Below are positions 34,348 through 50,390 of a stretch of 64,000 bases of DNA, piece by piece. The stretch covers positions 1 through 64,000 of the forward strand of contig NZ_DASQNA010000045.1 in assembly GCF_035645195.1 (NCBI RefSeq). The letters are read 5' to 3'. The notes under the pieces are model-generated. The model ran no database searches and was not told the DNA's origin. It saw only the letters and a program-made list of their open reading frames with translations. How positions within the stretch are numbered: position 1 is the stretch's first letter; each line of letters opens with the position of its first letter. A program made the translations under genes and the position numbers. Source of the stretch: Paenibacillus sp. (lineage in GTDB: Bacteria > Bacillota > Bacilli > Paenibacillales > YIM-B00363).

Positions 34348-34374
34348 ACTCTTAGCGTCGAAGGAGCGGGTGCA

Positions 34375-35640
34375 ATGGAAACTTCGGTTTTGTATGGAAA
34401 AGGGAGCGTTGCAATCGAAGTGCCGAACGACGCGGTCATCGTGGAGCCCAAGCATCAGCCAAGCGTGCCCGATGAGAAATTCGAGATTTTGAGAGCGCTT
34501 CGAAATCCAGTTGGATCCCCGCCGCTTGGAGAGAGCGTGAAGGCGACCGACCGGGTGGCGATCGTCATTAGCGACATTACGCGGCCGACCCCGAATCATA
34601 AGCTGGTGCCATGGCTGATCGAGGAGTTGCCTCACGTCCCCCGCGAGAACTTCGTCATTATTAACGGAACGGGGACGCATCGCGACCAGACCAGGGAAGA
34701 ATTCGTCACGATGCTAGGGGAGGAGATCGTTGATCGGTATCGCGTGATCAACCACCATTGTCATGAAGAGGCAGAGCTGTCGCATGTGGGAACGAGTCGG
34801 TTCGGCTGCGAAGTGCTGCTGAACAAGGCGTACGTCGAAGCGGATTTTCGCATTGTGACCGGCTTCATCGAGCCGCATTTCTTCGCGGGCTTCTCCGGCG
34901 GGCCGAAGGGCATTATGCCGGGCATCGCGGGGATCGATACGATCATGACGTTCCATAACGCGAGAATGATCGGGGACCCGCTCGCGACCTGGGGGAACAT
35001 GGAAGGTAATCCCGTACAGGAGATGTCCCGAGAGGTCAATCGGATGTGTCCGCCGCATTTCCTGCTGAATGTCGCCTTAAACCGAGACAAGGAGATCACC
35101 CAGGCGTTCGCAGGGCAATGGGAGACCGCGCACAAACAGGGGTGCGAATACGTGAAGACGCATGCGATGATTCAGTGCGACCGGCGGTTTGACGTCGTGG
35201 TGACGTCCAACTCGGGTTATCCGCTGGACCAGAACCTGTACCAAGCGGTGAAGGGGATGAGCGCGGCACAGAAGATCGTGAAAGAAGGCGGCACGATCAT
35301 CTGCGCGGCGGAGTGCTCCGACGGGTTGCCGTCGCACGGGAATTACGCGAAAATATTGGAGATGCGCGCTACGCCGCAAGAAATTCTGGACATGATCAAG
35401 GATCCGTCGTTCCGAATGTTCGATCAATGGCAGGTCCAAAAACAAGCGGTCATTCAGGTGTGGGCGGACGTATTCGTCTATTCTTCTTTGCCCGAGGAGG
35501 ACATCCGCAGGGCGAAATTCTCGGCGACTTCGAATATCAGCGACACGCTGCAGCGGCTTCGTATGAAATACGGCGACGGCATGAGCGTCGCCGTCATGCC
35601 GCAAGGCCCTTTGACGATTCCCTACGTGGAAGAAACATAA
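34375..35640 (+). CDS. LarA-family nickel-pincer racemase/epimerase
   Basis: Racemase or epimerase of alpha-hydroxy acids, cytoplasmic, about 421 residues (DUF2088/LarA family). Residues equivalent to the active site of lactate racemase are all visible with the expected spacing: His102 (GTGTHRDQT), His168 (EPHFF), the pincer-binding Lys178 (SGGPKGIMPG) and His194 (MTFHN). SDITRPTP near 67-74 is another family motif. A ribosome site (GAAGGAGCGGG) precedes the ATG. It heads a unit that continues with amidohydrolases after an intervening hairpin. None of the pincer-cofactor genes larB, larC or larE is in the window. The substrate may not be lactate. Confidence 0.88.
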   Translation: METSVLYGKGSVAIEVPNDAVIVEPKHQPSVPDEKFEILRALRNPVGSPPLGESVKATDRVAIVISDITRPTPNHKLVPWLIEELPHVPRENFVIINGTGTHRDQTREEFVTMLGEEIVDRYRVINHHCHEEAELSHVGTSRFGCEVLLNKAYVEADFRIVTGFIEPHFFAGFSGGPKGIMPGIAGIDTIMTFHNARMIGDPLATWGNMEGNPVQEMSREVNRMCPPHFLLNVALNRDKEITQAFAGQWETAHKQGCEYVKTHAMIQCDRRFDVVVTSNSGYPLDQNLYQAVKGMSAAQKIVKEGGTIICAAECSDGLPSHGNYAKILEMRATPQEILDMIKDPSFRMFDQWQVQKQAVIQVWADVFVYSSLPEEDIRRAKFSATSNISDTLQRLRMKYGDGMSVAVMPQGPLTIPYVEET

Positions 35641-35676
35641 GAGCAAGATGCAGGGTAAGCATAGGATCGCGCAATA

Positions 35677-35736
35677 GAAACGGGGACGCCCCAAAGCCAT
35701 GGACGATAGGCATGGCGGGGGGCGGCCCCGTTTTTC
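35677..35736 (+). terminator. Terminator hairpin after larA
   Basis: A long GC-rich stem (AAACGGGG / CCCCGTTT outside, GCCATG / CATGGC inside) is followed by TTTTTC. It separates larA from the amidohydrolase genes. The following 170 bp to the first amidohydrolase gene show no strong promoter. Confidence 0.75.
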
Positions 35737-35905
35737 ATAACTAAATTGAACCCCGAATCCACCGAAGCGCAGGCATACTCAATCTGTACAATTCGAATCC
35801 AAATACCATCCGTGCATGGAAGCGAATATTGCGGATTGAAGCGGCTCATGCCATCCCTTAGCATGGAGTTCAATCCCATATGTCATTCATCGAGGAGGGA
35901 AGCCG

Positions 35906-36967
35906 ATGCAGACCGCTCGGAAAGAAAAGCAATTTATTATCGATTGCGACGTGCACTGCGCGCCGAAGCATCCGGACGAAATCAGGAAGCATGTCCCCGA
36001 AGCCTGGAAAGATCGGTTCATGATGAGCAATCGGGACTTATACAATCACCCGCTGTACGTCATTCGAACCGACGCCCACCCGCCGGGAGGGGGACCGCCT
36101 GCTTCGGACCCGGATTTCCTGAGGGAACAGCTTGTAGACGAATACGGGATCAATCATGTCATTATCGTCCAGCGTCCCTTCACCAACCCGATCCCGTACC
36201 CAGCCTACGCGACCGTTCTTGGAAACGCATTCAACGATTGGTTGAACGAAACGTGGCTCGGCGAGTACAACCACGACGGGGTGTTTAAAGGGTCGATCTG
36301 CGTCTCCACGCAAGACGTTCCCGGCGCGGTTCGAGAAATCGAGCGCTGGGCGGGACATCCGCATTTCGTTCAGGTCGTGACCGATTCCGGGGCGACGGCG
36401 GCTTATGGCGGGCAGCAGTTCCATCCGATCTTCGAAGCGTGCGAACGGCACGGGCTGCCCTTCGCGATGCACGCGGGAGCGGACGGCATCGGCATCAGCA
36501 GCATTCCTTCCAGCGGCCACCCGACGCATTACATCGAATGGAGCTCAAATCATCCCTTATCGTACCAGTCGCATCTAGTGAGTTTGTTGGTCGAGGGCGT
36601 ATTCGATAAATTTCCGGGCCTGAAGGTCGTGCTGGTCGAGGGCGGCGTGTCCTGGCTGGCTCCGCTGCTGTGGCGGCTCGATTCGCTGTACGAGCGCTTT
36701 CGTTCGGAGGTGCCGTGGCTAAAGCGCAAGCCGAGCGAATATATTCGCGACCACGTACGCGTCTCGTCGCAGCCGATCGAACGTCCCGACAAAGATAAAC
36801 ACCTGCTGCGCATGCTGGAGTTTATGGACGCGGAGCATGTGCTCATGTTTTCGTCCGACTACCCGCATTGGGATTTCGATGATCCCAACTATGCGTTCCC
36901 GAAGCTGCCGGCCCCGTTGCGGCACCGTATCTTCTTCGAGAACGCCAGGGAGCTGTACCGATTATGA
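35906..36967 (+). CDS. Amidohydrolase-2 (ACMSD-type) family protein
   Basis: TIM-barrel metal hydrolase or decarboxylase of about 353 residues. Likely metal ligands: His17 in IIDCDVH, His189 in FAMHAGADG and Asp318 in FSSDYPHWD. Family members include decarboxylases of aromatic acids and lactone hydrolases. The GAGGAGGGAAG ribosome site precedes the ATG. It is translationally close to a second paralog (20 bp gap) and a Rieske protein. The pairing suggests steps on a ring or lactone compound, but this is inference. Confidence 0.88.
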   Translation: MQTARKEKQFIIDCDVHCAPKHPDEIRKHVPEAWKDRFMMSNRDLYNHPLYVIRTDAHPPGGGPPASDPDFLREQLVDEYGINHVIIVQRPFTNPIPYPAYATVLGNAFNDWLNETWLGEYNHDGVFKGSICVSTQDVPGAVREIERWAGHPHFVQVVTDSGATAAYGGQQFHPIFEACERHGLPFAMHAGADGIGISSIPSSGHPTHYIEWSSNHPLSYQSHLVSLLVEGVFDKFPGLKVVLVEGGVSWLAPLLWRLDSLYERFRSEVPWLKRKPSEYIRDHVRVSSQPIERPDKDKHLLRMLEFMDAEHVLMFSSDYPHWDFDDPNYAFPKLPAPLRHRIFFENARELYRL

Positions 36968-36987
36968 CGGTTAGGAGGGAATCGGGG

Positions 36988-38031
36988 ATGATCATCGATT
37001 GCGACGTTCATGTGTATCCGAATGACGGCGAGGCGATCCGGTCGCGCCTGAGCCAGCCTTGGAAGCATCGCTTTTCGCTCCGCGGCTTGCTTTACTATAA
37101 GGTTCCCGCCGAGGCTGCGGCCGCTGCAGCGGCGCAGGCCGAGCTTGGCAGGAGCCCGGAAGCGATGAGAACGGGCCACCTGGAGAAGCACGGCATTACG
37201 AATGCGTTATTAGTTCCGACGCCGCATGCGTCCGCGAACCACGATCCGGATTACGCCGCGGCGGTCGCAAGCGCCTATAACGAATGGTTGGCGGATGAGT
37301 GGCTGTCGAAGGAACGCAATCCGGATGGGGCGTTCAAGGGGACGATCTGCGTATCCCACCAAGATCCGGCCGCGGCGGCGAAGGAGATCGGTCGATGGGC
37401 GGAGCATCCGCATATGGTGCAGGTGTTGATGGAGTCCGGCGCGCGCGCTCCGTTCGGGCAGAGGCACTATTATCCGATCTACGAGGCGTGCTCGGCCGCC
37501 GGCCTGCCGCTCGTCATCCATCCCGCCGGGGAAGCCATGGGCGTCAACAAGCCGGTGTGGATCGGGTATCCGGCTCACTATTTGGAGTACTGCGCGTCCT
37601 TCAGCTTCGCCATGCAATCGCACTTAACCAGCCTGCTGACGGAAGGCGTCTTCGAGCGATTCCCGAATCTTCGCGTCGTGATCGCCGAAGGCGGTATCTT
37701 CTGGTTGGCGCCGATGCTATGGCGGCTCGATCAAAACTGGAAGGCTCTCCGGTCCGAGGTTCCTTGGGTGAAGAAGCTGCCGAGCCATTACGTCATGGAG
37801 CATGTCCGGTTCGCGACGGAGCTCGACAAAGGGCCGAGCGATGCTGCCGCTTGGGAAGTGCTGGACATGGCCGACGCCGGTCGGCTGCTGATGTTCGCCT
37901 CGAACGTTCCGGACGGAGGGCCGCTTGACATGAAAGCCGCGTTATCCCAGATCCCGGAAAGCAGACGAGGCCGCATCTTATACGACAACGCCAAGGAATG
38001 GTACGGAAAGCGGGTGATGGCACTTGGGTAA
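36988..38031 (+). CDS. Second amidohydrolase-2 family protein, atypical active site
   Basis: About 347 residues, clearly a paralog of the gene before it (same IIDCDVH start, PHMVQVLMESGA, EGGIFWLAPMLWRLD). His8 and the His in VIHPAG are kept, but the late Asp of the SDYPHWD motif is replaced by Asn306 (FASNVPDGG), and the His after it is lost. It may be inactive, use another residue or be a regulatory partner. The ATG at 36988 is chosen because AGGAGGG lies at ideal spacing; an ATG at 36964 would overlap the previous stop. The Rieske gene overlaps its end by 8 bp. Confidence 0.85.
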   Translation: MIIDCDVHVYPNDGEAIRSRLSQPWKHRFSLRGLLYYKVPAEAAAAAAAQAELGRSPEAMRTGHLEKHGITNALLVPTPHASANHDPDYAAAVASAYNEWLADEWLSKERNPDGAFKGTICVSHQDPAAAAKEIGRWAEHPHMVQVLMESGARAPFGQRHYYPIYEACSAAGLPLVIHPAGEAMGVNKPVWIGYPAHYLEYCASFSFAMQSHLTSLLTEGVFERFPNLRVVIAEGGIFWLAPMLWRLDQNWKALRSEVPWVKKLPSHYVMEHVRFATELDKGPSDAAAWEVLDMADAGRLLMFASNVPDGGPLDMKAALSQIPESRRGRILYDNAKEWYGKRVMALG

Positions 38032-38431
38032 GCACGTGCTGTTTCCCGCCTCGGAGCTGCCCGTCGGCGATAAGCGAATCGTTACGGTGGAGGGCAAGTC
38101 GATCGGCGTGTTTAACGTCAAGGGCAGCTATTACGCCATAAAGAATGTATGCCCCCATCAACAAGCGAAGCTGTGCGAGGGCGAAGTGATGGGCATCATG
38201 CTACCCTCCGCGCCGCATCAATACGTTTACGGCAAGGACGGCGAAATCATCCGCTGCCCATGGCATGGATGGGAATTCGACATCACGAACGGGAAGTCGG
38301 TTTTTGATCCGCACAAATGTCTTGTAAAGTCTTACGACGTTCAGGTCTTGGAATATTTAAGCGAAGACGTGGCCGTGTTAGAGACGTACCCCGTTGAGGT
38401 CGAAGCGGGCTGGCTCGTCATCGACCTATAA
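38024..38431 (+). CDS. Small Rieske [2Fe-2S] protein
   Basis: Electron-transfer protein of about 135 residues. The cluster ligands are Cys43 and His45 (CPHQQAKLCEG) and Cys78 and His81 (CPWHGWEFD). The insertion between the two boxes is longer than in simple ferredoxins. It could serve as a ferredoxin to an oxygenase, but no Rieske oxygenase large subunit or reductase is in the window. It starts with TTG, overlapping the preceding gene, so it is translationally coupled to it. Confidence 0.9.
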   Translation: MGKHVLFPASELPVGDKRIVTVEGKSIGVFNVKGSYYAIKNVCPHQQAKLCEGEVMGIMLPSAPHQYVYGKDGEIIRCPWHGWEFDITNGKSVFDPHKCLVKSYDVQVLEYLSEDVAVLETYPVEVEAGWLVIDL

Positions 38432-38447
38432 GAAAGGAAGTGAGCGA

Positions 38448-39425
38448 ATGGTCCAACCGTTGCACACGCCGACAGCGCCGATTACGCCGAGAAAGCCGGA
38501 AAAATACTCTCCTTTCAGCAAGCAGACGTTCCTCCGGGAGATGGCGCAGCGTAAATATTTGTACTTGTTTTTGCTGCCGGCCATCGTATGGTACATCATC
38601 TTTTACTACATCCCGATTTACGGTGTCACGATCGCCTTTAAAGATTTCTCCATCATGAAGGGCGTCATGGACAGCCCTTGGGTCGGCTTCGCCCACTTCG
38701 AAACGATGTTCAACTCGCCGGACTTTGCGAGAGTGCTGCGCAACACGCTGCTCATCAGCGGGCTGAAGCTGGTTTTCGTGTACACCTCGGGCATCGTGCT
38801 GGCGCTGCTCCTCAACGAAATCATTCACGAGCGTTTCAAGAAGACGATCCAAAGCATCACGTATTTGCCTCACTTCTTGTCTTGGGTCATTATCGGCAGC
38901 ATCATGGTAGAGCTGTTGTCGCCTTCGACCGGTCTTGTGAACCAGATCATCCTGGCGTTCGGCGGCGAACCGATTTACTTCTTGGCCGAGCGGGATTGGT
39001 TCGTACCGATCCTGATTCTGTCGGACGTCTGGCAAAGCTGCGGCTGGGGCTCGATCATCTATTTGGCGGCCATTGCAGGGATCGATCAACAGCTGTACGA
39101 GGCAGCGACGATGGATGGGGCGGGACGTTTTCAGAAAATGTGGCACATTACCCTGCCGTCGATCGCGAACGTCATTATCATCATGATGATCTTTAACATC
39201 GGGAATATCATGAACGCGGGCTTCGATCAGATTTTCAATCTGTATAACCCAAGGGTGTACGAGGTCAGCGACATCATCGACACCTACGTGTACCGCGTTG
39301 GGTTGGTCCAGATGAATTTCAGCTTCTCGACCGCGGTCGGCTTGTTTAAGAACGTCATCGGTCTCGTGCTGGTGCTGCTCGCGAATAAGTTGGCGAACCG
39401 GTTCGGGCAAACCGGATTCTGGTAA
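38448..39425 (+). CDS. CUT1 ABC transporter permease, LplB type
   Basis: Permease of about 325 residues with six membrane segments. The EAA loop is YEAATMDGAGRFQKMWHITLP. The N-terminal region of about 45 residues is soluble and proline-rich. The ATG at 38448 is chosen for the upstream AAGGAAGTGAGCG; the gene starts 16 bp after the Rieske gene. Its binding protein is about 8 kb downstream rather than adjacent. Confidence 0.92.
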   Translation: MVQPLHTPTAPITPRKPEKYSPFSKQTFLREMAQRKYLYLFLLPAIVWYIIFYYIPIYGVTIAFKDFSIMKGVMDSPWVGFAHFETMFNSPDFARVLRNTLLISGLKLVFVYTSGIVLALLLNEIIHERFKKTIQSITYLPHFLSWVIIGSIMVELLSPSTGLVNQIILAFGGEPIYFLAERDWFVPILILSDVWQSCGWGSIIYLAAIAGIDQQLYEAATMDGAGRFQKMWHITLPSIANVIIIMMIFNIGNIMNAGFDQIFNLYNPRVYEVSDIIDTYVYRVGLVQMNFSFSTAVGLFKNVIGLVLVLLANKLANRFGQTGFW

Positions 39426-39439
39426 GGGGGGCTAAGGAT

Positions 39440-40333
39440 ATGGCGGCAGTAGGACAACAACAGCGTATGAAGCTGTTCGACTATGTGAACTACACGATCT
39501 TGATCGCGTTATCGCTTTCGGTCGTATACCCGATTCTTTATTTATTGTTCCTGTCCCTTAGCTCGCGCGAGGGGCTAGTGACGGGAGGCAACGTCTGGCT
39601 GTGGCCGCAAGGCTTTACTTGGAAGGCCTACACTGGCTTCATCGACCAGACGTACATTTATACGGGATATGCCTACACGATCGGGAGAACCGTCGTCGGC
39701 ACGTTCGTCGGCGTGCTCCTGATGTCGCTGGCGGGCTACTCGCTGTCCAAGAAGATCATGTTTAAGAAATCGATCACGTTCTTCTTTATCTTCACGATGT
39801 TCTTTACCGGCGGCCTCATCCCGACGTATTTGCTCATCAAGTCGCTCGGGCTGATCAATAATCCGCTCGTCTACATTTTGGCGCCGCCGTTCCTGTACAA
39901 CACGTTCTACATGCTGATTCTACGAAACTTCTTCATGACGGTTCCGGACAGTCTGGAGGAGTCGGCGAAGATCGACGGGGCGGGCGATTTGCGCATTTTC
40001 TTCAACATTATGGTGCCGCTCGCCGCACCAGCGATCGCGACGATCTGCCTGTGGGTCGGCGTGAATCACTGGAACTCGTGGTTTGATTCAATCATTTATA
40101 TACAAAATGCCGATTTGCAGGTCATCCAGGTGCATATCCGCAAGCTCGTCATCGAGCAGAGCGCCTTGCTCATGAGCGACGCGATCGACTTTACCGACCA
40201 GAGTGACATTCCGACGCCGGAGAGTATGAAGGCCGCCGCTATACTTATCACGCTGATCCCGATTCTTTGCGTCTATCCGTTCGTGCAGCGGTTTTTCGTC
40301 AAGGGCGTCGTGATGGGCGCTGTGAAAGGGTAA
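39440..40333 (+). CDS. CUT1 ABC transporter permease, LplC type
   Basis: Permease of 297 residues with six membrane segments. The EAA loop reads LEESAKIDGAGDLRIFFNIMVP and the end is VQRFFVKGVVMGAVKG. It follows the first permease by 14 bp with GGGGGGCTAAGG upstream. No binding protein or ATPase lies next to it; a PD40 protein gene follows. Confidence 0.93.
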   Translation: MAAVGQQQRMKLFDYVNYTILIALSLSVVYPILYLLFLSLSSREGLVTGGNVWLWPQGFTWKAYTGFIDQTYIYTGYAYTIGRTVVGTFVGVLLMSLAGYSLSKKIMFKKSITFFFIFTMFFTGGLIPTYLLIKSLGLINNPLVYILAPPFLYNTFYMLILRNFFMTVPDSLEESAKIDGAGDLRIFFNIMVPLAAPAIATICLWVGVNHWNSWFDSIIYIQNADLQVIQVHIRKLVIEQSALLMSDAIDFTDQSDIPTPESMKAAAILITLIPILCVYPFVQRFFVKGVVMGAVKG

Positions 40334-40354
40334 TCCATAGAGGAGAGTGATATC

Positions 40355-41425
40355 ATGACGGGGTACCACACGAAAAATAAGCGGTATGATGGTCCGAACC
40401 CGCTCGACAATCCGCCGCCGTTCCACCAGAAGCTGCTTGATTACGGGGAGCGGCCGTACTGGTCGCCGGACGGCAAGCGAATTGCTTTCATCGAAAGCAA
40501 TTACGGAGACGTCTGCGAGATCGATCTGGAGACGCGCCAGGTACGAAACTTGACGAAGGATCTCGGGGATCACCATTCATTCTTACGCGTGCTCTTCCTG
40601 CCCAACGGCGACTATCTCCTGATCGGGCCGAAGGAATTCAAAGATCGGGATATTAGCCGGCACGTCGAATCCGAGCTCTGGATCATGGATAAAGATGCGA
40701 AGACGCCGCCCAAGCCGCTCGGCCGCCGCATCTACGAGGGCTGCGCAGTGTCGACGACCGCGAATCGGATCGCCTACTCGCTCAGCAGCCGCACGACGCC
40801 GGAGATCGGCGGGACGGACCGGTGGGAGGCCCATGTGACGGAGATCGTGTATGACGAGAACGGTCCGCGGCTCGGGGAGGACCGGGTAATCTACCGGACC
40901 GAAGGAGGTCGTCAGTGCGAGCCGCAGGACTTCCGCCGCGGCGATAAAGAGGTGGTCATGGCGGAATACCTCTATTGGCGCCGAACACATCCCGAGGAGT
41001 GGAAATGCGTCGTCAAGGGCGTCGACCTCGAGACCTTGGAGGTCAAGACGTACATTGACGAGCCGACGACCCACAACGAATGCGAAGGGATTTTCCCGGA
41101 CGGCGACCATATTTGTTTGGAATCGTCCTGCGACTTCGAAAATTTCTTTCCGCCGATCGATCTATGGAAGCTGAAGCTTGACGGCACGGGCCGACGGGTT
41201 CGGATGACGCGGCTGTTCGAGCATCCGCCGTGGCGGGCGAGCAACTCCAACGTAAGCCCGGACGGCAAGTGGCTAGCCTTCATGATTAACGTCTACGATA
41301 GCGAGCCCGGGTACGGCATGGGCATGGGGCTGCTCGACCTGGAGGCTTGGGAGAAGAGCGAATACGCGCTTCAGTGGGAGACGCCGGAAGAGCGGGCCGA
41401 AGCTCGGAGACGCGCGAAGGGATAG
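40355..41425 (+). CDS. PD40 beta-propeller protein, paralog 1
   Basis: About 356 residues, no signal peptide. WSPDGKRIAF (36-45) and SPDGKWLAFM (301-310) are PD40/TolB-type blade repeats. Residues conserved in all three paralogs of this window: His73-His74 (DHHSF), Glu189 (CEPQDF), His240-Asn-Glu (THNECEGIF), Glu256 to Asp260 (ESSCD) and RASNSN. This pattern looks more like an active or metal site than a scaffold, and is reminiscent of oligogalacturonate-lyase (PL22) propellers, although the match is weak. It lies directly after the permease genes. Function is unknown. Confidence 0.85.
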   Translation: MTGYHTKNKRYDGPNPLDNPPPFHQKLLDYGERPYWSPDGKRIAFIESNYGDVCEIDLETRQVRNLTKDLGDHHSFLRVLFLPNGDYLLIGPKEFKDRDISRHVESELWIMDKDAKTPPKPLGRRIYEGCAVSTTANRIAYSLSSRTTPEIGGTDRWEAHVTEIVYDENGPRLGEDRVIYRTEGGRQCEPQDFRRGDKEVVMAEYLYWRRTHPEEWKCVVKGVDLETLEVKTYIDEPTTHNECEGIFPDGDHICLESSCDFENFFPPIDLWKLKLDGTGRRVRMTRLFEHPPWRASNSNVSPDGKWLAFMINVYDSEPGYGMGMGLLDLEAWEKSEYALQWETPEERAEARRRAKG

Positions 41426-41436
41426 AGATACGACAA

Positions 41437-41489
41437 GAGGGCATTCCTCCGTCAGGTCGATTATGACATGACGAAGAATGCCCTTTCGT
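41437..41489. terminator. Bidirectional terminator hairpin
   Basis: AGGGCATTC pairs with GAATGCCCT, with inner CGTCA/TGACG pairs, then TTTCGTT. It lies between the PD40 gene and the convergent AraC-type gene. Confidence 0.75.
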
Positions 41490-43675
41490 TACTTCCGATA
41501 ATCGCCCGGCGTGACGCCGGCCACCTTCTTAAACATGCGGATAAAGGAGAAGGAGTGCAGGTAGCCGACCTTCGCCGCGACGTCCTGCACGGTCTCGTTC
41601 GTCTCCAGCAGCAAGGATTTGGCCCGCTCCATTCGGATCCGGACGAGGTAGTCTACGAACTTCTCCCCGAACTCGTCTTTAAACAATTTACTCAGATAGC
41701 GGGTGCTTAAATTGAATTCGTCGCTAAGATGATACAGAGACAAATCCGGATTGAAGTAATTCTCCTCGATATACTTCTTCATTCGATGAATTAACTCGTT
41801 GTTAATCCGGTTTTCCCTGACCGACAAGATGTCGTCGAAGGTCGCGCGCAGGCTGGTGAATGCCCTCTCCCGAAACTCTTCCAAAATATCGAAGCGCTGC
41901 AAGGCGTCCTGCCAGTCCCTATACGCCGTCGCCTTCCAACGCTCTTGAATCGGCTCGGGCAGCTCATGGATTTCGTAATCAAGCGACGACAGCGCATAAT
42001 GGAGAATTTTCACGACGTCGTCGACGGGCAAGCGTTGCGCCTTCATCTCGGAAAACAGCCGTTCGTACTTCTCCTCCCATCCCGGCTCGCCCAGACGATA
42101 AGAGCGGGCTAACGCATGCACCAATGGCACATGCTCGAACACATCCGATGGGGAACGATTCGGCAGATGCGTCTCATCGATGATCCGGCCGCTTCCAAGG
42201 ATCGCTTTGTATTCCAACGTTTCCTTGGCGTTCTCGTAAAGTGTTGGCAGCTCCTCCGCCCGGCTCGTGACACCGCCGAAGCCGATCGTGAACGAAATCT
42301 TTAGATGCTTCTCCGACCATTGGAGCGTCTTCTCCAGCAAACTTCCAGGCTCCTCGAAGACAATGATGCCAAGGCGCGAGCCTTCCACGTATTCCGCCCA
42401 CACCGATATGCCCTGGTTTGATGCGATCTCGTGAATGACGTTCACGATGACGTAACGCAGCAAATACTGATCCTTCGCGGAATAATTCGCGCAGAAGTCC
42501 GCGTATTTGTCGATTTCGAGCACCGCAACGGACGCACGTTCGAACTCCGTACGGATTCCGAGCCGATGAAGCTCGTTCCTGCATTCCTCTGTTTGCATCG
42601 ATTGGATGCCTTCCAGCAGCTCCCCGAACAGATGTCTTCGCAGAATATGCTGATCCTCTTTATGCATATTTTCGTATCGGTACGCATTCTCCAGGAGCTG
42701 GTCGATGGCGAGCTGAATGTACCGCATCTCATCCTGAGGGGCACCGTGAAACAGCTCGAAGTATTGCTCTTGCACGCCGCCGCGGATGCTGCTGACAATT
42801 GACTCGATAGGTTTGTATCTCTTGCGGGTCACATACACGATCAAGATGCCCCCGAAGAAGATGGAAATGATGCCGACGGAGGCCCATACGTAGGGGAAGG
42901 AAGCGAAGACGAGATTGGCGTACCCGACGTTGATCCCGCTCTCGATGGACCAGCCCGTGTACGACAAGGGGACGGACGAAGTATGGCGGTTCGCATCCGA
43001 GGAATCGCCCGTTTGGTAGATCGTCCCGCCGCTCCCGTCCTTGATGCGGATGGAGTTTACGCCGGCGTTCGTCATGCGGGAGACCATGGCCGAGATCGCG
43101 TCCGCCCGAACGTTGACGACGAACAATCCTTTGCTTTCGCCAGTGACAGGAACCCTGCGCACCAAGGTGACGACGTCCCGCGTCGTGTTTCGCCTCGGGT
43201 TATCAAAGGTTCGCTTACCGGACCAGTACACGATCTTGCCCGCGTCTCTCTGCGCTTTGATGAAAGGTGCGTCGACGAATTCGTCCGCGCTCGACAGTCC
43301 CGTATCCGTCACCACCATCCCATCGGCGTAACGGACGAGATAGATCGATTCGATCTCCGGGAAGCTTGCGATGGTGCGGTTCAACGAACGATTGGAAGCA
43401 TAGACGCCGAACAAGCCGTCTTCCATATGGAAGAAGCGATAATTCGTATCGTCGGACATAATATCCTTGATGACCACTTTGTCGATGGTCAGCAGCATAT
43501 TGTCGACCGACTGCGCCACTTGGACGCCTAAGGCTTCGTTCGCCTTCAGCGCCGTCTTCTTGGTGATTTCGCCTAGAATAGCAAAAAACGTGAGATACAA
43601 GATCAAGGTCGCGACGAAGAAAATGGGAAGATACGCAAACAAGGATCGGTAAAACCAAGTTTTCCTTCGTTTCAA
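41489..43675 (-). CDS. AraC-type regulator with extracytoplasmic sensor domain
   Basis: Membrane-anchored transcription regulator of about 728 residues. A short basic start is followed by TM1 (SLFAYLPIFFVATLILYLTF), an extracytoplasmic dCache-like region to about 270, TM2 (FPYVWASVGIISIFFGGILIV), a long cytoplasmic linker and an AraC double helix-turn-helix at the end (DLSLYHLSDEFNLSTRYLSKLF and VQDVAAKVGYLHSFSFIRMF). It lacks kinase and receiver domains and may link sensing and DNA binding in one chain. It is divergent from the GH42-like gene at 43920 and has a perfect cre-type site in its upstream region. Likely targets are the adjacent transport and PD40 genes. Confidence 0.92.
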   Translation of the reverse strand: MKRRKTWFYRSLFAYLPIFFVATLILYLTFFAILGEITKKTALKANEALGVQVAQSVDNMLLTIDKVVIKDIMSDDTNYRFFHMEDGLFGVYASNRSLNRTIASFPEIESIYLVRYADGMVVTDTGLSSADEFVDAPFIKAQRDAGKIVYWSGKRTFDNPRRNTTRDVVTLVRRVPVTGESKGLFVVNVRADAISAMVSRMTNAGVNSIRIKDGSGGTIYQTGDSSDANRHTSSVPLSYTGWSIESGINVGYANLVFASFPYVWASVGIISIFFGGILIVYVTRKRYKPIESIVSSIRGGVQEQYFELFHGAPQDEMRYIQLAIDQLLENAYRYENMHKEDQHILRRHLFGELLEGIQSMQTEECRNELHRLGIRTEFERASVAVLEIDKYADFCANYSAKDQYLLRYVIVNVIHEIASNQGISVWAEYVEGSRLGIIVFEEPGSLLEKTLQWSEKHLKISFTIGFGGVTSRAEELPTLYENAKETLEYKAILGSGRIIDETHLPNRSPSDVFEHVPLVHALARSYRLGEPGWEEKYERLFSEMKAQRLPVDDVVKILHYALSSLDYEIHELPEPIQERWKATAYRDWQDALQRFDILEEFRERAFTSLRATFDDILSVRENRINNELIHRMKKYIEENYFNPDLSLYHLSDEFNLSTRYLSKLFKDEFGEKFVDYLVRIRMERAKSLLLETNETVQDVAAKVGYLHSFSFIRMFKKVAGVTPGDYRK

Positions 43676-43854: not shown

Positions 43855-43883
43855 TTGAACGATTCGGGCCGCTGGCGTACATT
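43855..43883 (+). promoter_or_regulatory. Candidate promoter for the GH42-like gene
   Basis: TTGAAC, 17-bp spacer, TACATT. The spacing and -10 box resemble the candidate promoter at 46117-46146 and the flanking text is similar. Upstream is an imperfect hairpin (GCATCCGAT / ATCGGAGGATGC). Confidence 0.35.
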
Positions 43884-43919
43884 CAGAACCAATTCGAAGC
43901 GATAGGGAGGTACGTTGTC

Positions 43920-46055
43920 ATGCGGCAGAAGGCTGGGGAAGAAAACCCGTGGTATCGGCGCACGCTGCGCTGGGGGCAGACGAATTTGACGGAGATGGAT
44001 CCGCAGTTATGCGATTTTGCTTGGTGGAGGTCTTATTGGAAAGAAACAAAGGTGCAGGGGTTGATCGTCAACGCCGGCGGGATCGTCGCGTATTACCCGA
44101 GCGACTTCGCGCTGCAGTACCGGGCTGAGGGGCTTGGAGAGCGCGATTTATTCGGCGACTTCGTTCGCGTTGCGCGCGAGGAAGGGTTGGTCGTGTTAGC
44201 CCGTATGGACATCAATCGTGCGACGAAAGCGTTCTACGACGCTCAGCCGGATTGGTTTGTTGTCGATGCGGAAGGCGTGCCGCCAACGTCTGACGGTAGG
44301 TATTTTTCGTGCATCAACAGCGATTATTACAAAACGTTCATCCCTGAGGTGTTGAGGGAGATCGTTACCAAGTACGGACCGGAGGGATTCACCGACAACA
44401 GCTGGACCGGCTACACGAAGCAGGTGTGCCATTGTGTAAATTGCAAGAAGAAATTCAAGTTCGAGACGGGCTTCGATCTGCCGGCGGCGAAGGATTGGGG
44501 CGATCCCGCTTATCGGGAATGGGTACGCTGGAGCTACGGCTGCCGGTTGGAAAATTGGGATTTGTTCAACCGCGTCACGATGGAAGCGGGCGGGAAGGAC
44601 TGTCTGTGGCTCGGCATGGTGAACGCGAATCCGATTCACACGCACGGTTTTTTCTACGATTTGAAGGACATCGGCGAGCGGTCCAAGATTATAATGTGCG
44701 ACCACCAATCCCGCGACTCCCTGAACGGCTTCGAACAGAACGGCATGAACGGCCAGCTGCTTCAGAGCGTCTCCGATTGGGACGTCGTCGTGCCCGAGAG
44801 TATGGCTAATTACGTTCGCGGCGTTCGGACGTTCCGACAAGGCAGCAATCCGCCGCTCGAGACGCGGCTGTGGATGCTGGAGGGGATCGCGGGCGGCATC
44901 TCCCCTTGGTATCATCATATCGGCGCGGTGCAGGAGGATCGCCGGCAATACGAGAACGCGGTACCGGTCATGCAGTGGCACGAGGCGAATGAAGCGTATT
45001 TGTACGACCGCGCTCCCGCCGCAACCGTAGGTCTTGTCTGGAGCCAGATGAACACCTCGTTCTTCGGAAGGGACGAGATCGAAGAGCAAGTCGCGCTGCC
45101 ATGGCACGGCTTCGCAAGAGCATTGACGCGCGCGCGGATCCCTTACATCCCCGTGCATGCGGATCAGATCGGCAAGCACGCGGGCGCGCTGAAGACGCTG
45201 ATATTGCCGGATGTGGCGGCGATGACCGATGCGCAGTGCGAAGCGGTCGCCAGCTTCGTCGAAGCCGGCGGGAGCTTGATCGTCACGGGGGCTTCCGGGA
45301 CGTTGGACGGCCTCGGAGAGCCGCGCGATCGCTTCCCGTTGGAGGACTTGCTCGGCATCTCGCATCTCTACGAGATGGAAGGCTCCGTCGGGAAACAATC
45401 CTCCGAATGGTCTTACTACGGGGCTCACAACTACTTTAGATTACCCAAGGACCGGCATCCCGTTCTGGCGGGCTTCGAAAACACGGATATTTTGCCGTTC
45501 GGGGGCAAGGTGCATCGGGTACGGGCCAACGGCTCGACGCTGCAGCCGATCGCGACGTATATTCCGTCCTATCCGATCTATCCGCCGGAGTTCAGCTGGA
45601 TGCGGGTGCCGCAGACGGACGTCCCCGTGCTGTTCGCCGGACGGCACCAGGCGGGCGGACGGCTGTTCTACTTCGCCGGCGACGTCGATCGCTGCTATGG
45701 TCGTACGCACTTGCCGGATCTGGGAGATCTGCTGGCGGCCGCCGTAAGATGGGCCTCGGAAGAGAGTCTGCCGCTTCAAGTAGAGGGGCCCGGGTATTTG
45801 GATTGCAGGCTGTATCGGCAGGAAGGCCGACTGGTGCTGCATATCGTGAACCTCAGCGGAAGCAATCAACATGGGTACGTCGAAGAATATTACCCGGTCG
45901 GTCCGTTGACCGTCTCGGTGAAGGCGGACGGCTTCGAGCCGACGCGCGGGAAGCTGCGGGTGGCCGGAGGAGAGACGATGCTGGAACGCAAAGGCGGTTG
46001 GGTGACGCTGCGCGTAGATGCCGTGCGAGACCATGAATTGATCGTGTTCGAGTAA
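43920..46055 (+). CDS. GH42-like glycoside hydrolase / beta-galactosidase trimerisation-domain protein
   Basis: About 711 residues. The first 360 residues look like a TIM-barrel glycosidase: YRRTLRWGQTNLTEMDPQLC, VNAGGIVAYYPSD, FSCINSDYYKTFIPEVLREI and FTDNSWTGYTKQVCHCVNC. A middle domain (TLILPDVAAMTDAQCEAVASF) resembles the flavodoxin-like trimerisation domain of GH42 enzymes; a beta domain ends it. No signal peptide is seen, so it is probably cytoplasmic. The ATG at 43920 is chosen because GGGAGG lies upstream and family members begin near PWYRRTLRW; earlier starts are possible. Catalytic residues were not assigned. Confidence 0.82.
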   Translation: MRQKAGEENPWYRRTLRWGQTNLTEMDPQLCDFAWWRSYWKETKVQGLIVNAGGIVAYYPSDFALQYRAEGLGERDLFGDFVRVAREEGLVVLARMDINRATKAFYDAQPDWFVVDAEGVPPTSDGRYFSCINSDYYKTFIPEVLREIVTKYGPEGFTDNSWTGYTKQVCHCVNCKKKFKFETGFDLPAAKDWGDPAYREWVRWSYGCRLENWDLFNRVTMEAGGKDCLWLGMVNANPIHTHGFFYDLKDIGERSKIIMCDHQSRDSLNGFEQNGMNGQLLQSVSDWDVVVPESMANYVRGVRTFRQGSNPPLETRLWMLEGIAGGISPWYHHIGAVQEDRRQYENAVPVMQWHEANEAYLYDRAPAATVGLVWSQMNTSFFGRDEIEEQVALPWHGFARALTRARIPYIPVHADQIGKHAGALKTLILPDVAAMTDAQCEAVASFVEAGGSLIVTGASGTLDGLGEPRDRFPLEDLLGISHLYEMEGSVGKQSSEWSYYGAHNYFRLPKDRHPVLAGFENTDILPFGGKVHRVRANGSTLQPIATYIPSYPIYPPEFSWMRVPQTDVPVLFAGRHQAGGRLFYFAGDVDRCYGRTHLPDLGDLLAAAVRWASEESLPLQVEGPGYLDCRLYRQEGRLVLHIVNLSGSNQHGYVEEYYPVGPLTVSVKADGFEPTRGKLRVAGGETMLERKGGWVTLRVDAVRDHELIVFE

Positions 46056-46075
46056 TACACCGTTTGTAACATCCG

Positions 46076-46104
46076 CCTCCGATGTACCGACGGTGCATCG
46101 GAGG
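46076..46104 (+). terminator. Hairpin after the GH42-like gene
   Basis: CCTCCGATG and CATCGGAGG form a perfect 9-bp stem with an 11-base loop. A weak A/T tail (GAAAACTGTT) follows, so termination is probably partial. Confidence 0.45.
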
Positions 46105-46116
46105 GAAAACTGTTCA

Positions 46117-46146
46117 TTGATTTTGCCGGACGCTCTGGTTTACATT
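46117..46146 (+). promoter_or_regulatory. Candidate promoter for PD40 paralog 2 and the binding-protein gene
   Basis: TTGATT, 18-bp spacer, TACATT. It is similar to the element at 43855-43883, with related flanking text (GGACGCTCTGGTTTACATTC against GGGCCGCTGGCGTACATTC). Confidence 0.35.
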
Positions 46147-46321
46147 CAAGTTGCTTCCGGCGGCGTCCCCGCGTCCCCCTCCCTGAATGAGGAAATGGCA
46201 TCGCTTACATGAGCGTGTCGAACGCTCGGTTCTGTGGAGAAGAGTGACGCAACGCAGCCCGAGGGCGAATCAAGTCGATAAGGAACGTCCACCAAAAAAG
46301 AAACCGTTAGGAGGATTCCGC

Positions 46322-47386
46322 ATGTCCGATACGCCGGGAGGCGCAAGTCCGAATCCGTTGCTCGATCCCCCGCCGTTTCACCAGATGCTGCTAGATTACG
46401 GAGAGCGGCCGTATTGGTCGCCGGATGGCAAACGAATTGCTTTCGTGGAGAGCAACTACGGGGACATCTGCGAGATCGATATGGAAACCCGCAAGGTTCG
46501 CAATCTCACGAAACATCTTGGGGACCATCATTCGTTCTTGCGCGTCTTGTTTTTGCCGAACGGGGATTATTTGTTGATCGGTCCCAAGGAGTTTAAAAAC
46601 CGAGACATCAGCAGGCATGTCGAGTCCGAGCTGTGGATTATGGACAAAGACGCGAAGCGCCCGCCCAAGCCGCTCGGTCGGAGGATTTACGAAGGCTGCG
46701 GCGTCTCGACGATCGCGAATCGGATTACGTACGCGTTAAGCTCGCGTACGACCCCGGAGCTCGGCGGGACGGATCGATGGGAAGCGCACGTGACCGAGAT
46801 CGTCTACGATGAGAACGGTCCGAGATTGGGCGAAGATCGAGTAATTTACAGAACCCAAGGGGGTTACCGGTGCGAGCCGCAGGATTTCCGCCATAACGAC
46901 AAGGAGGTCATCATGGCGGAGTATTACAACAGCCATCGAACGCATCCGGACCATTGGCGATGCACCGTGAAGGGGGTCCACCTCGATACACTCGAAGTAC
47001 GGGTGTATATCGACGAGCCGACGACGCATAACGAGTGCGAAGGGATTTTCCCCGATGGCGAGCATATTTGCTTGGAGTCGTCCTGCGATTACGAGAACTT
47101 CTTCCCGCCAATCGACCTGTGGAAGCTGAAGCTGGACGGCACTGGACGACGCGTCCGCATGACGCGGTTGATCGACAGTCCTCCATGGCGAGCCAGCAAC
47201 TCCAATATTTCCCCGGACGGGAAATGGATGGCCTTCATGATCAATCAATACGACAGCGAGCCCGGTTACGGCATGGGCCTCGGACTGTTCGATGTGGAGG
47301 CATGGGAGAAGAGCGCTTACGCGCAGCAATGGGAGACGCCGCAAGAACGGGCAATGGCAAGGAATTCCGCACAACCTAAAACTTAA
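46322..47386 (+). CDS. PD40 beta-propeller protein, paralog 2
   Basis: About 354 residues and very close to the paralog at 40355, with the same DHHSF, CEPQDF, THNECEGIF, ESSCD and RASNSN motifs and the blades WSPDGKRIAF and SPDGKWMAFM. The ATG at 46322 follows TTAGGAGGATTC; an in-frame ATG further upstream would add a basic tail with no matching region in the paralogs. The binding-protein gene begins 15 bp after it, so propeller and binding protein are co-transcribed. No signal peptide, so a cytoplasmic role is likely. Confidence 0.85.
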   Translation: MSDTPGGASPNPLLDPPPFHQMLLDYGERPYWSPDGKRIAFVESNYGDICEIDMETRKVRNLTKHLGDHHSFLRVLFLPNGDYLLIGPKEFKNRDISRHVESELWIMDKDAKRPPKPLGRRIYEGCGVSTIANRITYALSSRTTPELGGTDRWEAHVTEIVYDENGPRLGEDRVIYRTQGGYRCEPQDFRHNDKEVIMAEYYNSHRTHPDHWRCTVKGVHLDTLEVRVYIDEPTTHNECEGIFPDGEHICLESSCDYENFFPPIDLWKLKLDGTGRRVRMTRLIDSPPWRASNSNISPDGKWMAFMINQYDSEPGYGMGLGLFDVEAWEKSAYAQQWETPQERAMARNSAQPKT

Positions 47387-47401
47387 GGGAGGTTGTCATC
47401 A

Positions 47402-49222
47402 ATGAAGAGGAGTTTACAAAGCATGCGAAGCGTATTCGCGCTCATCCTGGCCTTCGCGATGTTCGTGACGTTCGCGGTCGGGTGCTCCAACGATTCCAAG
47501 GGCGATGCGGGAGGCGGCGAATCGGCAACGAAGTCGGAAGGAAAGACGCCGGCGCCCGCGAACGCCGAGAATCTCGATCCGCTCTCGGCAGCGGCGGACA
47601 ACGTCATCATTGAAGCGGAGCTGGCGGCGACCGAGACGCCGGAATACTTCGCCAATACGCCGACGTTCGAATACGTCGTCAACTTCGGGGTTACACCTCT
47701 GAAGGAAGGCTCCTTCGGGCAGCGTTACTTCGAGAAAAAGTTTAACGTGAAGTTGAAGTTCGTCACGTTAGACGGCGCCGATCGGAAGGAACAGCTTAAC
47801 TTAATGTACGCCACAGGAACGGTTCCGGATCTCGTCACGCTTACGCTCGGAGACATTCCCGAATATACGAAGCAGGGTGTCCTGGCCGAGGTGCCGTTGG
47901 ACATGGTGAAAGAGCATATGCCCGTTTATTCGCAGAATATCGAGAAGTTCGACCCGCAGCTGTTCAATATCACGAAGGTCGACGGCAAGAACATGGGCCT
48001 CGCGCGCTTGAAGCCGAACGGCGGGGTGCCTCGCGGAGCGGTCATTCGGGCGGATTGGCTGGAGAAAGTCGGCATTACGAAGGTGCCCGAGACGATCGAG
48101 GAGTTGGAGGCGGCCTTCTTGAAATTCCGCAACGAAGACCCTGATGGGAATGGAAAAAAGGATACGTACGCCCTGTCGAATCCGAGCAACTTCGCAGGTC
48201 ATTATTGGTTCCACTCGATCTTCGGCGCCTTCGGGGCGAATCCGTTCATCTGGGTGGAACGGAACGGGCAGCTGCAATTCGGCTTTACGACGCCGGAAGT
48301 GAAGGAAGCACTGAAGACGCTGAATCGTTGGTACGAAGCCGGAATCATCGATCCGGAATTCATTACGGACAACGGCCGAAGCAGCGACGTGGAGGATATC
48401 GCGACGAAATTCGCAAAGGCGAAGCTCGGGTACGCCGACCAGTTAAGCTTTGACGACCATCAATGGGATAACGACGGCCATATCAGCTTCCGATGGACAG
48501 CGAATTCTCCGGAGTGGCAGGCGTTCTTCGAGGAGCATAAAGACGATCCTGCGAAAGCTTATCAGTATGGCATCTTCACCGACTTCAACGATTCCGTGCC
48601 GCAGCCGATCTACATCAGCATGCCGCCGGTGAAAGGACCGGGGGGCCATCAAGGCTACTATCGCGAGGGCTACCAAGATTCGGTATTCGGCTTCGGCAAG
48701 AACCTTGAGAACGATCCGCAGAAGCTCGAGAAGCTGCTGAAGATCATGGAATACCTCCATGTGGACGAGGACGCGCACATTACGCAAAGCTGGGGTCCGG
48801 AAGGCTTGATGTGGATCTCCGACGAGTCGGGCCAGCGCCAGCTGAATCCGGAATGGGCGAAGCACGAGCTGTTCCACCCGCAATACAAGCATCTGGGCGT
48901 GAACTGGCTGTCGAACCCGATGAACTGGACGAATCCGGATTTCTTGGCGCTCTGGGGACCTCGGGACGTACAGCGTTACGAGCTGACCGCGAACGTTATG
49001 GCAAAATTCCCGTATTACGAAAACATGCTGAAGGTCGGTCTTCCTTCGCAGGCAAAATATTCGGAATTACTCGATACGCGAATCAAGGAATACGTCGTGA
49101 AGGCGATCGCCGGCGACGTCGACGTCGACGGGACGTTCGACGCGACGGTTCAGAAGTGGTATCAGGACGGCGGCGAACAGCTGACCAAAGAAGCGAACGA
49201 GTGGTACGCGAACGTGAAGTAA
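47402..49222 (+). CDS. CUT1 ABC transporter substrate-binding lipoprotein
   Basis: About 606 residues. Signal peptide with lipobox FAVGC (cysteine near residue 27), then a Gly/Glu/Ser linker and a long type-1 binding fold with EDPDGNGKKDTYALS. It is the only binding protein near the permeases at 38448-40333, which lack an adjacent one, so it probably serves them. The ATG at 47402 follows GGGAGG. It lies between two PD40 paralogs. Confidence 0.92.
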   Translation: MKRSLQSMRSVFALILAFAMFVTFAVGCSNDSKGDAGGGESATKSEGKTPAPANAENLDPLSAAADNVIIEAELAATETPEYFANTPTFEYVVNFGVTPLKEGSFGQRYFEKKFNVKLKFVTLDGADRKEQLNLMYATGTVPDLVTLTLGDIPEYTKQGVLAEVPLDMVKEHMPVYSQNIEKFDPQLFNITKVDGKNMGLARLKPNGGVPRGAVIRADWLEKVGITKVPETIEELEAAFLKFRNEDPDGNGKKDTYALSNPSNFAGHYWFHSIFGAFGANPFIWVERNGQLQFGFTTPEVKEALKTLNRWYEAGIIDPEFITDNGRSSDVEDIATKFAKAKLGYADQLSFDDHQWDNDGHISFRWTANSPEWQAFFEEHKDDPAKAYQYGIFTDFNDSVPQPIYISMPPVKGPGGHQGYYREGYQDSVFGFGKNLENDPQKLEKLLKIMEYLHVDEDAHITQSWGPEGLMWISDESGQRQLNPEWAKHELFHPQYKHLGVNWLSNPMNWTNPDFLALWGPRDVQRYELTANVMAKFPYYENMLKVGLPSQAKYSELLDTRIKEYVVKAIAGDVDVDGTFDATVQKWYQDGGEQLTKEANEWYANVK

Positions 49223-49236
49223 TGCCATAAGCAGGC

Positions 49237-49260
49237 AAGCCCGTTCGGCGGAGCGGGCTT
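49237..49260 (+). terminator. Weak terminator/attenuator hairpin
   Basis: AAGCCCG pairs with CGGGCTT around a 10-base loop. The tail CCTAAAT is poor, so it may only reduce expression of the PD40 gene after it. Confidence 0.45.
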
Positions 49261-49292
49261 CCTAAATACCGAACGGAAGCGGGGAATTCGGA

Positions 49293-50390
49293 ATGACTAG
49301 CGGGAAAATTCATCAGGTGACAAACGAGTTGTACGCGGGTGAGCATGTGTTGGATACGCCGATGGCGTTTCATGAGAAGCTGCTCGGTTACGGAGAGCGA
49401 CCCTACTGGTCTCCAGACGGCAAGCGGATTGCGTTCATTGAGAAAAATTACGGAGACGTCTGCGAAATCGACCTGGAGACGCGTCAGGTGAAGCAACTGA
49501 CGAAGGAACTGGGGGACCACCATTCCTTCCTTCGCGTGCTGTTCCTGCCTAGCGGGGATTATATTCTGATCGGTCCGAAGGAATTTAAGGACCGGCGCAC
49601 GAGCCGGGCGATCGAATCCGAGCTCTGGTTCATGGACAAGGACGCGAAGCGTCCGCCGAAGCCGCTCGGGCGGGCGATCTTCGAGGGCTGCGGCGTCTCG
49701 ACGATCGCGAACCGCATCACCTTCTCCGTGAACGGCCTGCATGATCCGAGCGTTGGCGCCGCCGACGACTTCGCCGTCATCGTCGCGGACGTAGACGCGT
49801 CGAATCCCGACGACCCGAAGCTGGCGAACGAGAGGATCGTCTACCGCGCAAGCGGCGGCGTTCGACCGGAACCTCAGGATTTCCGTCACAACGATTCGGA
49901 AATCATCATGGCCGAATACATCAACGACCCCTGGGGCCGACACGGCCCGAAGGACGATTGGAAATGTATCGTCAGCGGCATCAAGCTCGATACGCTGGAG
50001 CGGACCGTTTACATCGACGAGCCGCTCACGCATAACGAATGCGAAGGGATTTTCCCCGACCATGAGTATATTTGCCTCGAATCGTCCTGCGACGAGGTGA
50101 ATTCCTATCCGCCGCTCGATCTTTGGAAGCTAAAGCTCGACGGCTCCGGCAGACGCGTCCGCATGACGAGATTTTTCGAGCGCTACCCATGGCGTGCCAG
50201 CAATTCCAACGTTAGCCCGGATGGCAAACGGATGGCGTTCATGGTCAACATGGTGAACAGCGAAGCGGGCTTTGGTATGGGACTCGGCTTGTTCGACTTG
50301 GAGGGCTGGGAGAAAAGTCCGTACGCCCAGCAATGGGAGACGCCGGCGTCCCGAGCGCAGGACCGCGAGGCGAAGCGATTAGAATCGTAA
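49293..50390 (+). CDS. PD40 beta-propeller protein, paralog 3
   Basis: About 365 residues and more distant from the other two: it has an insertion in the middle (SVGAADDFAVIVADVDASNP) but keeps all the shared residues, namely DHHSF, PEPQDF, THNECEGIF, ESSCD and RASNSN. Blade repeats are WSPDGKRIAF and SPDGKRMAFM. No signal peptide. GCGGGGAATT precedes the ATG. It is the last gene of the cluster before a terminator. Retention of the motifs in three copies argues for a conserved catalytic function. Confidence 0.85.
   Translation: MTSGKIHQVTNELYAGEHVLDTPMAFHEKLLGYGERPYWSPDGKRIAFIEKNYGDVCEIDLETRQVKQLTKELGDHHSFLRVLFLPSGDYILIGPKEFKDRRTSRAIESELWFMDKDAKRPPKPLGRAIFEGCGVSTIANRITFSVNGLHDPSVGAADDFAVIVADVDASNPDDPKLANERIVYRASGGVRPEPQDFRHNDSEIIMAEYINDPWGRHGPKDDWKCIVSGIKLDTLERTVYIDEPLTHNECEGIFPDHEYICLESSCDEVNSYPPLDLWKLKLDGSGRRVRMTRFFERYPWRASNSNVSPDGKRMAFMVNMVNSEAGFGMGLGLFDLEGWEKSPYAQQWETPASRAQDREAKRLES

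Follow-up and report, generated by a model that had tools for sequence, protein, structure and literature searches.

A predicted import-and-oxidise gene cluster in Paenibacillus sp. joining an amidohydrolase-fold oxygenase system to a CUT1 importer, a GHL6 hydrolase and PD40 propellers

Gene content and transcription units

The analysed stretch (the window) comprised positions 1 to 64,000 of contig NZ_DASQNA010000045.1 from Paenibacillus sp. (assembly GCF_035645195.1), and the region of interest spans 34375..50390. A first-pass annotation had described this region as one undescribed catabolic cluster. The gene content it named was present throughout, as confirmed by Pfam and NCBIfam matches: LarA, two Amidohydro_2 proteins, a Rieske protein, two permeases, an AraC-type regulator, a solute-binding protein (SBP) and three PD40 propellers. 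We describe here the arrangement of these genes, the probable identity of the amidohydrolase pair as a dinuclear oxygenase, and the pathway that the cluster may encode.

Where a ribosome-binding site, judged by eye, indicated a better start than that of the longest open reading frame, both starts are given. Operon 1 (35906-41425, forward strand) has the order H2-H1-Rieske-PermA-PermB-PD40a. It consists of P0002 (35906..36967), P0003 (36964..38031; possible true start 36988), the Rieske ferredoxin P0004 (38024..38431), the CUT1-type permeases A (PermA, 38448..39425; longest frame from 38394) and B (PermB, 39440..40333), and as its final gene PD40a (40355..41425), a beta-propeller protein in which no signal peptide was recognized by eye. 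The first genes overlap by 4 and 8 bases, and the following gaps measure 16, 14 and 21 bases, the first of them counted to the PermA start at 38448. A hairpin at 41430..41490 (z -4.7 when 41420-41490 is folded), not assigned to a strand, separates PD40a from the regulator gene and is likely a shared terminator. The AraC-family sensor-regulator (41489..43675, reverse strand), whose membrane part was judged by eye, is divergent from operon 2. The latter is looser, with gaps of ~266, 15 and 70 bases between ribosome-binding-site starts, and carries on the forward strand the glycosyl hydrolase P0009 (43920..46055; longest frame from 43758), PD40b (46322..47386; longest frame from 46187), the SBP with a lipobox seen by eye (47402..49222; longest frame from 47393) and PD40c (49293..50390). 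It is closed by a terminator-like hairpin of 12 pairs at 50398..50428 on the forward strand (z -4.2 when 50390-50440 is folded). From the gene gaps, the hairpins and the ribosome-binding sites we infer that each operon is co-transcribed. The LarA gene (34375..35640, forward strand, 421 aa) precedes operon 1 and is followed by a very stable, T-tailed hairpin at 35676..35735 on the same strand (-40.2 kcal/mol, z -6.1), a likely intrinsic terminator, suggesting that LarA forms a transcription unit of its own. A promoter scan was uninformative (4 found, 9.6 expected), terminator-like signals numbered 23 with 17.2 expected, and an Rfam scan of 33000-51000 returned zero matches. An inverted repeat, CATCCGAT...ATCGGAGGATG, was noticed by eye at 43812-43840 between the AraC gene and P0009 and is a possible operator.

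Both permeases matched BPD_transp_1 and the binding protein matched SBP_bac_8 (Pfam). The SBP gene does lie between two PD40 genes, PD40b and PD40c, as had been noted; its start is ~7 kb beyond the end of the second permease, against the 8 kb stated in the first-pass annotation. The SBP gene of P. agricola lies directly 3' of the PD40 genes. P0009 had been called GH42-like. It indeed gave weak matches to GH42 and to the GH42 trimerisation domain, as well as a weak sequence match (8.8e-05) to the alpha-L-fucosidase 6tvk, which we take to be a GH151 member, but its best Pfam family was GHL6 (63.7 bits, cut-off 35), a family of hypothetical hydrolases, and Glyco_hydro_42 stayed below its cut-off (19.1 versus 21 bits).

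The amidohydrolase pair and its Rieske partner

The two amidohydrolase-like proteins scored 144 and 108 bits against Amidohydro_2 and the Rieske protein P0004 scored 62 bits (Pfam). The best PDB sequence match of P0002 was 8SM7 (E 3.1e-99), followed by 8SM9, 8SM6 (SfbO) and 8SM8. AibH2 (6m1w_B) aligned with an E-value of 6.4e-56 and 38.8% identity over 330 residues, and the other AibH1H2 chain came next. P0003 likewise matched 8SM7 first (6.3e-76), then 8SM6 and then the other AibH1H2 chain. These chains belong to amidohydrolase-related dinuclear oxygenases (AROs), and their E-values were lower than those of the next family by ~28 orders of magnitude for P0002 and ~23 for P0003; PF04909 decarboxylases were matched at 8.8e-17 and weaker by P0002 and at 2.9e-13 and weaker by P0003. 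AROs are a recently recognized class that can use manganese for breaking strong C-H bonds (PMC10401708, PMC10811679) and is marked by the PF04909 fold, six metal ligands, a small Rieske partner and a Mn/Fe or Fe2 cofactor (PMC10811679, PMC10401708, PMC7782822). AibH2 is a Mn/Fe C-H hydroxylase and AibH1 its partner without a dinuclear site (PMC10401708, PMC7782822). AibH2-like proteins co-occur with a Rieske gene in 90% and with permeases in 40% of cases (PMC10401708).

P0002 retains the complete set of six AibH2 metal ligands (D25, H27, H211, E265, D337 and H340) as D15, H17, H189, E245, D318 and H321, and the second-sphere aspartate D342 aligns to D323. The comparison covered 12 H2-type sequences, one of them P0002, and these seven residues were identical in all 12. 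An AibH1H2-type heteromeric ARO is recognized by a second subunit that has D, H, H, E and D and lacks the second-sphere Asp. P0003 keeps D, H, H and E, its fifth position is N, and the positions of H340 and D342 are occupied by D and G; the DxxHxD motif has thus degenerated to NxxDxG (NVPDGG). Seven sequences from other loci were at first taken as H1 together with P0003. One of these eight, from locus L081, carries the full H2 site, i.e. is H2-like. The other seven, among them P0003, have lost H340, and six of them have also lost D342, the aspartate being retained in L063; counted over the seven from other loci, H340 is lost in six and D342 in five. The adjoining P0004 is a small ferredoxin with the CxH...CxxH pattern of a [2Fe-2S] Rieske protein (CPH at 43, CPWH at 78) and is the presumed electron donor. 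P0002, P0003 and the Rieske gene together form the three-gene ARO signature. The first-pass annotation had found no oxygenase to go with the Rieske protein; this difficulty falls away, as the amidohydrolase pair is homologous to the dinuclear monooxygenases AibH1H2 and SfbO. On these alignments it is very probable that the three proteins constitute an ARO system, with P0002 as AibH2-like catalytic subunit and P0003 as AibH1-like partner.

Relatives of P0002 (E up to 1e-40) occurred in 110 of the 392 genomes of the order, its own included, often in multiple copies. Twenty ARO loci, 59-74% identical to P0002, were fetched and compared with 20 control stretches. The loci were picked by similarity, several came from one genome, and two further ARO places lying in PD40 clusters were omitted; the counts are descriptive. 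Where GC-rich loci led the simple open reading frame caller to wrong frames, counts were taken by tblastn. A Rieske gene was found in 20/20 ARO loci and 0/20 controls, CUT1-like permeases in 17/20 ARO loci, an SBP in 8/20 (controls 2/20) and MR/MLE enzymes, some with only 23-29% identity, in 7/20 (controls 1/20). GH42 was present in four and GHL6 in two ARO loci, GHL6 with 66-70% identity adjoining the AROs of L080 and L082. Either family was seen in 5/20, or in 6/20 if 700/880-aa families without a Pfam match are counted. LarA occurred in one ARO locus and PD40 in none. The controls held no GH42, GHL6, LarA or PD40 gene. ARO-Rieske-CUT1 clusters are therefore common in the order. In P. agricola the genes form a contiguous block, AraC-H2-H1-Rieske-PermA-PermB-PD40-PD40-SBP, with proteins 42-84% identical to those of the window.

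PD40 propellers and the neighboring LarA

PD40a and PD40b are 83% identical, PD40a and PD40c 65%. Relatives were found in four of the 392 genomes of the order (its own, P. agricola, P. cremeus and genome G159), in 8 loci across 84,980 species genomes in a pattern-limited scan, and in 11 plasmids, of which that of Shinella was the sole close one. The order of the Phyllobacterium genome yielded one positive genome among 397, Phyllobacterium itself, and no ARO-PD40 linkage was seen there, the genes lying on different contigs. PD40 is an uncommon family whose occurrences are dispersed among phyla. In a locus from a Bacilli metagenome-assembled genome, PD40 was accompanied by a Rieske gene and a single H2; the P. 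cremeus locus had PD40 and a single H2, the latter where the stretch ends. PD40 stood beside GHL6 in Pseudonocardia, Shinella and Sphingobium, and with GH42 and MR/MLE in G159. On the Sphingobium (TomTYG46) plasmid (L026 3288-24083), two GHL6-type genes and two distantly related PD40 genes lay among genes for hydroxypyruvate isomerase, GlxR and hydroxypyruvate reductase. The Lachnospiraceae locus (L010, genome G392) held a GH2-type enzyme, LarA, a 2-hydroxyacid dehydrogenase and glycerate kinase, and that of Saccharopolyspora (L011 6751-16469) TctA/TctC and an aldo-keto reductase, with a classical Rieske oxygenase alpha subunit 3.6 kb off. Glycosidases lay beside 8 of the 12 PD40 loci, window included, counting proteins scanned with Pfam and those sharing 50% identity or more with such a protein. 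A family of ~870-880 aa without credible Pfam match recurred beside PD40 and ARO genes (L009 4326-6977, L012, L014, L028, L073, L080 and L082); its L009 member gave a weak PDB match to BPa0997 (E 0.11).

A single P. agricola copy grouped with PD40a and PD40b (100/100). PD40c belonged to a separate branch that also included P. cremeus, G159, the metagenome-assembled genome, Phyllobacterium and Shinella (85/88, below the mark of 95). Phyllobacterium and Shinella were nested among Bacilli rows (89/82). The tree points to an ancient origin of the paralogues, to a more recent duplication giving PD40a and PD40b, and to transfer across phyla. In the structure model of PD40a (pLDDT 88.7), the propeller resembles TolB and equally many enzymes, which is informative on the fold and not on the reaction. 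Oligogalacturonate lyase (3c5m, 3pe7), a PL22 enzyme with a Mn-binding His/Gln site, shares the propeller fold and was within the Foldseek top 20. In this comparison of overall folds, its TM-scores to PD40a were only 0.43-0.49, with 12-15% identity. PL22 membership was not supported: PF14583, the profile of that family, was absent among the Pfam matches up to E 10, although HMMER filters may drop weak matches.

LarA scored 238 bits against Lar_N and 105 bits against LarA_C (Pfam) and exceeded the cut-off of the NCBIfam lactate racemase model NF033504 (550 versus 460 bits). Its four active-site residues, H102, H168, K178 and H194, stand at the family spacing (66/10/16), in agreement with the first-pass annotation. 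The specificity residues F169, F170, W352 and Q353 (each 6 below the LarA1 numbers) read F,F,W,Q. These are the residues given for lactate racemases, and Q is found in the glycerate-active LarAH43 (PMC11770544). All catalytic residues and F,F,W,Q are common to the window LarA, lactate racemase LarA and LarAH43 (PMC11770544, PMC7583248). The window LarA differs from both in that its cofactor genes are distant and its orthologues in the order are linked to glycerate kinase and GlxR. The reported absence of pincer-cofactor genes held for the neighborhood and not for the genome, as its contig C14 carries larB, larC and larE grouped together (L030 9590-12318), each scoring above its NCBIfam cut-off. 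The C-terminal part of PF01969 was matched ~5 kb from them on the opposite strand.

LarA matches at E up to 1e-100 were found in 32 of 384 genomes, its own included, the others being 62-74% identical. Among 20 fetched LarA loci (L125-L144), one (L135) contained an ARO and none PD40. Glycerate kinase and/or a GlxR-type reductase occurred in 10/20, as against 0/20 controls and 2/20 ARO loci; the probes were taken from the LarA loci themselves and scored 495 bits for glycerate kinase (cut-off 168) and 276 bits, below the cut-off of 341, for tartronate-semialdehyde reductase. Some of these loci also held CdaR and KdgT. The sole such match in the window was 34% GlxR-like and lay ~10 kb upstream. 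Because of the specificity residues and the linkage to glycerate kinase and GlxR, LarA is probably a glycerate/lactate racemase with glycerate as the likely substrate. Membership of LarA in the operon was rejected on its own terminator and the location of most orthologues elsewhere, and its placement in the window may be due to chance. Scattering of the gene families in close relatives, named at the outset as an argument against a cluster, was found for LarA, not for the ARO, Rieske, permease and PD40 genes, which are contiguous in P. agricola.

Downstream of the cluster terminator, two tandem HI0933-like flavoproteins follow at 50531-53182. Genes for a PrpR-type sigma-54 regulator, a Fe-alcohol dehydrogenase, a DUF1537-type kinase (320 bits against the D-threonate kinase model, under the cut-off of 450) and PdxA at 53328-59167 look like a separate tetronate-catabolism set.

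Proposed pathway, rival explanations and known systems

As an explanation of the whole, we consider likely a regulated import-and-oxidise cluster (core 35906-50390), whose substrate would be a small sugar conjugate, perhaps an acidic one. The first-pass annotation had proposed import and degradation of a plant polymer fragment or an aromatic glycoside; as far as catabolic import of some sugar-containing compound goes, the CUT1 transporter, the glycosyl hydrolase, the AraC-type regulator and the glycosidases at PD40 loci support it; that the ARO system serves sugar-conjugate catabolism appears quite probable from this gene context. The compound would be imported by the SBP/CUT1 transporter, and GHL6 would remove glycosidic parts. 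P0002/P0003 with a Mn/Fe or Fe2 site, receiving electrons via the Rieske protein, would then use O2 to hydroxylate a C-H bond, plausibly beside an ether or glycosidic oxygen, after which the product would break up or feed PD40. This position of the hydroxylation rates as less likely than not; O-demethylation of a methylated sugar was also considered as the ARO reaction. The PD40 proteins, probable enzymes, would convert the product further, and LarA, a neighbor outside the operons, may handle a C3 hydroxy acid. Import, deglycosylation, C-H hydroxylation and PD40 action is the simplest route fitting the gene order.

Several observations weigh against this reading. P0003 is without even the fifth metal ligand of AibH1 and therefore may not bind metal. 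No reductase with FAD_binding_6 (PF00970), the domain that we take AibF to carry, was found in the genome. The ARO loci were not a random sample, permeases like those of the cluster also occurred in the controls (PermA 9/20, PermB 10/20), and glycosidases were found in a minority of the ARO loci. The PD40 fold matches were generic, comprising TolB, DPPIV, oligogalacturonate lyase and lactonases. An ARO lay within the fetched stretch in only 4 of the 12 PD40 loci, and the genome of the Lachnospiraceae, an anaerobic family, had no ARO at E up to 1e-30. PD40 and ARO thus need not share one target molecule.

The amidohydrolases might instead be ordinary PF04909 lactonases or decarboxylases acting on an aldonolactone or an aromatic acid, the Rieske gene serving an oxygenase elsewhere. 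PF04909 does include 5-carboxyvanillate and gamma-resorcylate decarboxylases, matched at the far weaker E-values given above, but AROs and AibH1/AibH2 rank first, the ARO site of P0002 is intact and a Rieske gene accompanied every sampled ARO. This alternative is very unlikely, and a standard lactonase or decarboxylase identity was rejected on the ligand pattern and the E-values. It is also doubtful that LarA works in the pathway by turning L- or D-glycerate (or lactate) from the imported compound into the usable isomer. Its F,F,W,Q residues, with the Q of glycerate-active LarAH43 (PMC11770544), the Lachnospiraceae locus with LarA and glycerate kinase, the glycerate/hydroxypyruvate genes around the distant Sphingobium PD40 genes, and genome G169 (L081, outside the LarA sample), in which LarA and a GlxR-type reductase lie beside an ARO, would fit such a role. 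Against it stand the terminator, the near absence of ARO and PD40 from the orthologue loci, the location of the P. agricola LarA on a contig other than that of its ARO/PD40 block, and the identity of only 35% of the L010 LarA to that of the window.

A further possibility concerns PD40, which could be a non-enzymatic scaffold, or a binding or chaperone protein for the oxygenase or the transporter. Three similar copies, the generic propeller fold and the position of one copy at the end of the permease operon are compatible with this, but PD40 occurs with differing transporters (CUT1, Dpp-type and TctA/TctC) and without a nearby ARO in 8/12 loci. Moreover, charged residues are invariant over wide divergence, including R33, D52, E55, R78, E189, D192, E242 and E256 in 12 sequences with 28-83% identity to PD40a. 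For this reason an enzyme is favored, and a scaffold seems rather unlikely; more likely than not, PD40 acts enzymatically in the pathway that the ARO serves. The variety of importers, one of them a carboxylate type, suggests that its ligand is acidic. More speculatively, and improbably on present evidence, PD40 could represent a novel group of carbohydrate-active propeller enzymes. Together with an amidohydrolase-fold Mn/Fe monooxygenase as partner, they would split a sugar-acid conjugate by oxidizing the carbon beside the ether or glycosidic link. This would amount to oxidative intracellular glycoside cleavage, its PD40 part having spread across phyla and into an oxygenase-free variant.

Among the known systems closest to the import-and-oxidise cluster is AibH1H2-AibG-AibF, the 2-aminoisobutyrate hydroxylase of Rhodococcus wratislaviensis (PMC7782822, PMC10401708). 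Both have two amidohydrolase-fold subunits, one with a six-ligand dinuclear site, a small Rieske ferredoxin and a co-encoded transporter. Unlike that system, an AibF-type flavin ferredoxin:NAD reductase gene was not found among the cluster genes, and the CUT1 importer, the glycosyl hydrolase and PD40 replace amino-acid genes; P0003 has lost the fifth metal ligand, and P0002 is 39% identical to AibH2. The orphan AROs SfbO (8SM6), 8SM7, 8SM8 and 8SM9 (PMC10811679) share with the cluster the family (8SM7, 3e-99) and the logic of a Rieske neighbor. The H1/H2 pair together with a CUT1 importer, GHL6 and PD40 may set the cluster apart from them.

The term undescribed needs qualification: many members of the order carry ARO-Rieske-CUT1 clusters, and publications on the enzyme class exist (PMC10401708, PMC10811679), although the orphans there are without an assigned substrate. 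Literature searches on combinations of PD40, amidohydrolase, Rieske and sugar transporter, whose coverage left out most subscription papers, listed no paper on such a cluster. Clusters of this kind have been described recently; the partner family PD40 is unusual. The oddities of the locus are mostly explained. Physiological substrates have been assigned to very few AROs (PMC10401708, PMC10811679). Within two compact operons, an ARO here stands together with its own CUT1 importer, a regulatory gene, a glycosyl hydrolase and the uncommon PD40 propellers, so that the substrate question can be tested directly. It also exposes an annotation trap, in that "amidohydrolase" genes adjoining a small Rieske gene are candidate oxygenases.

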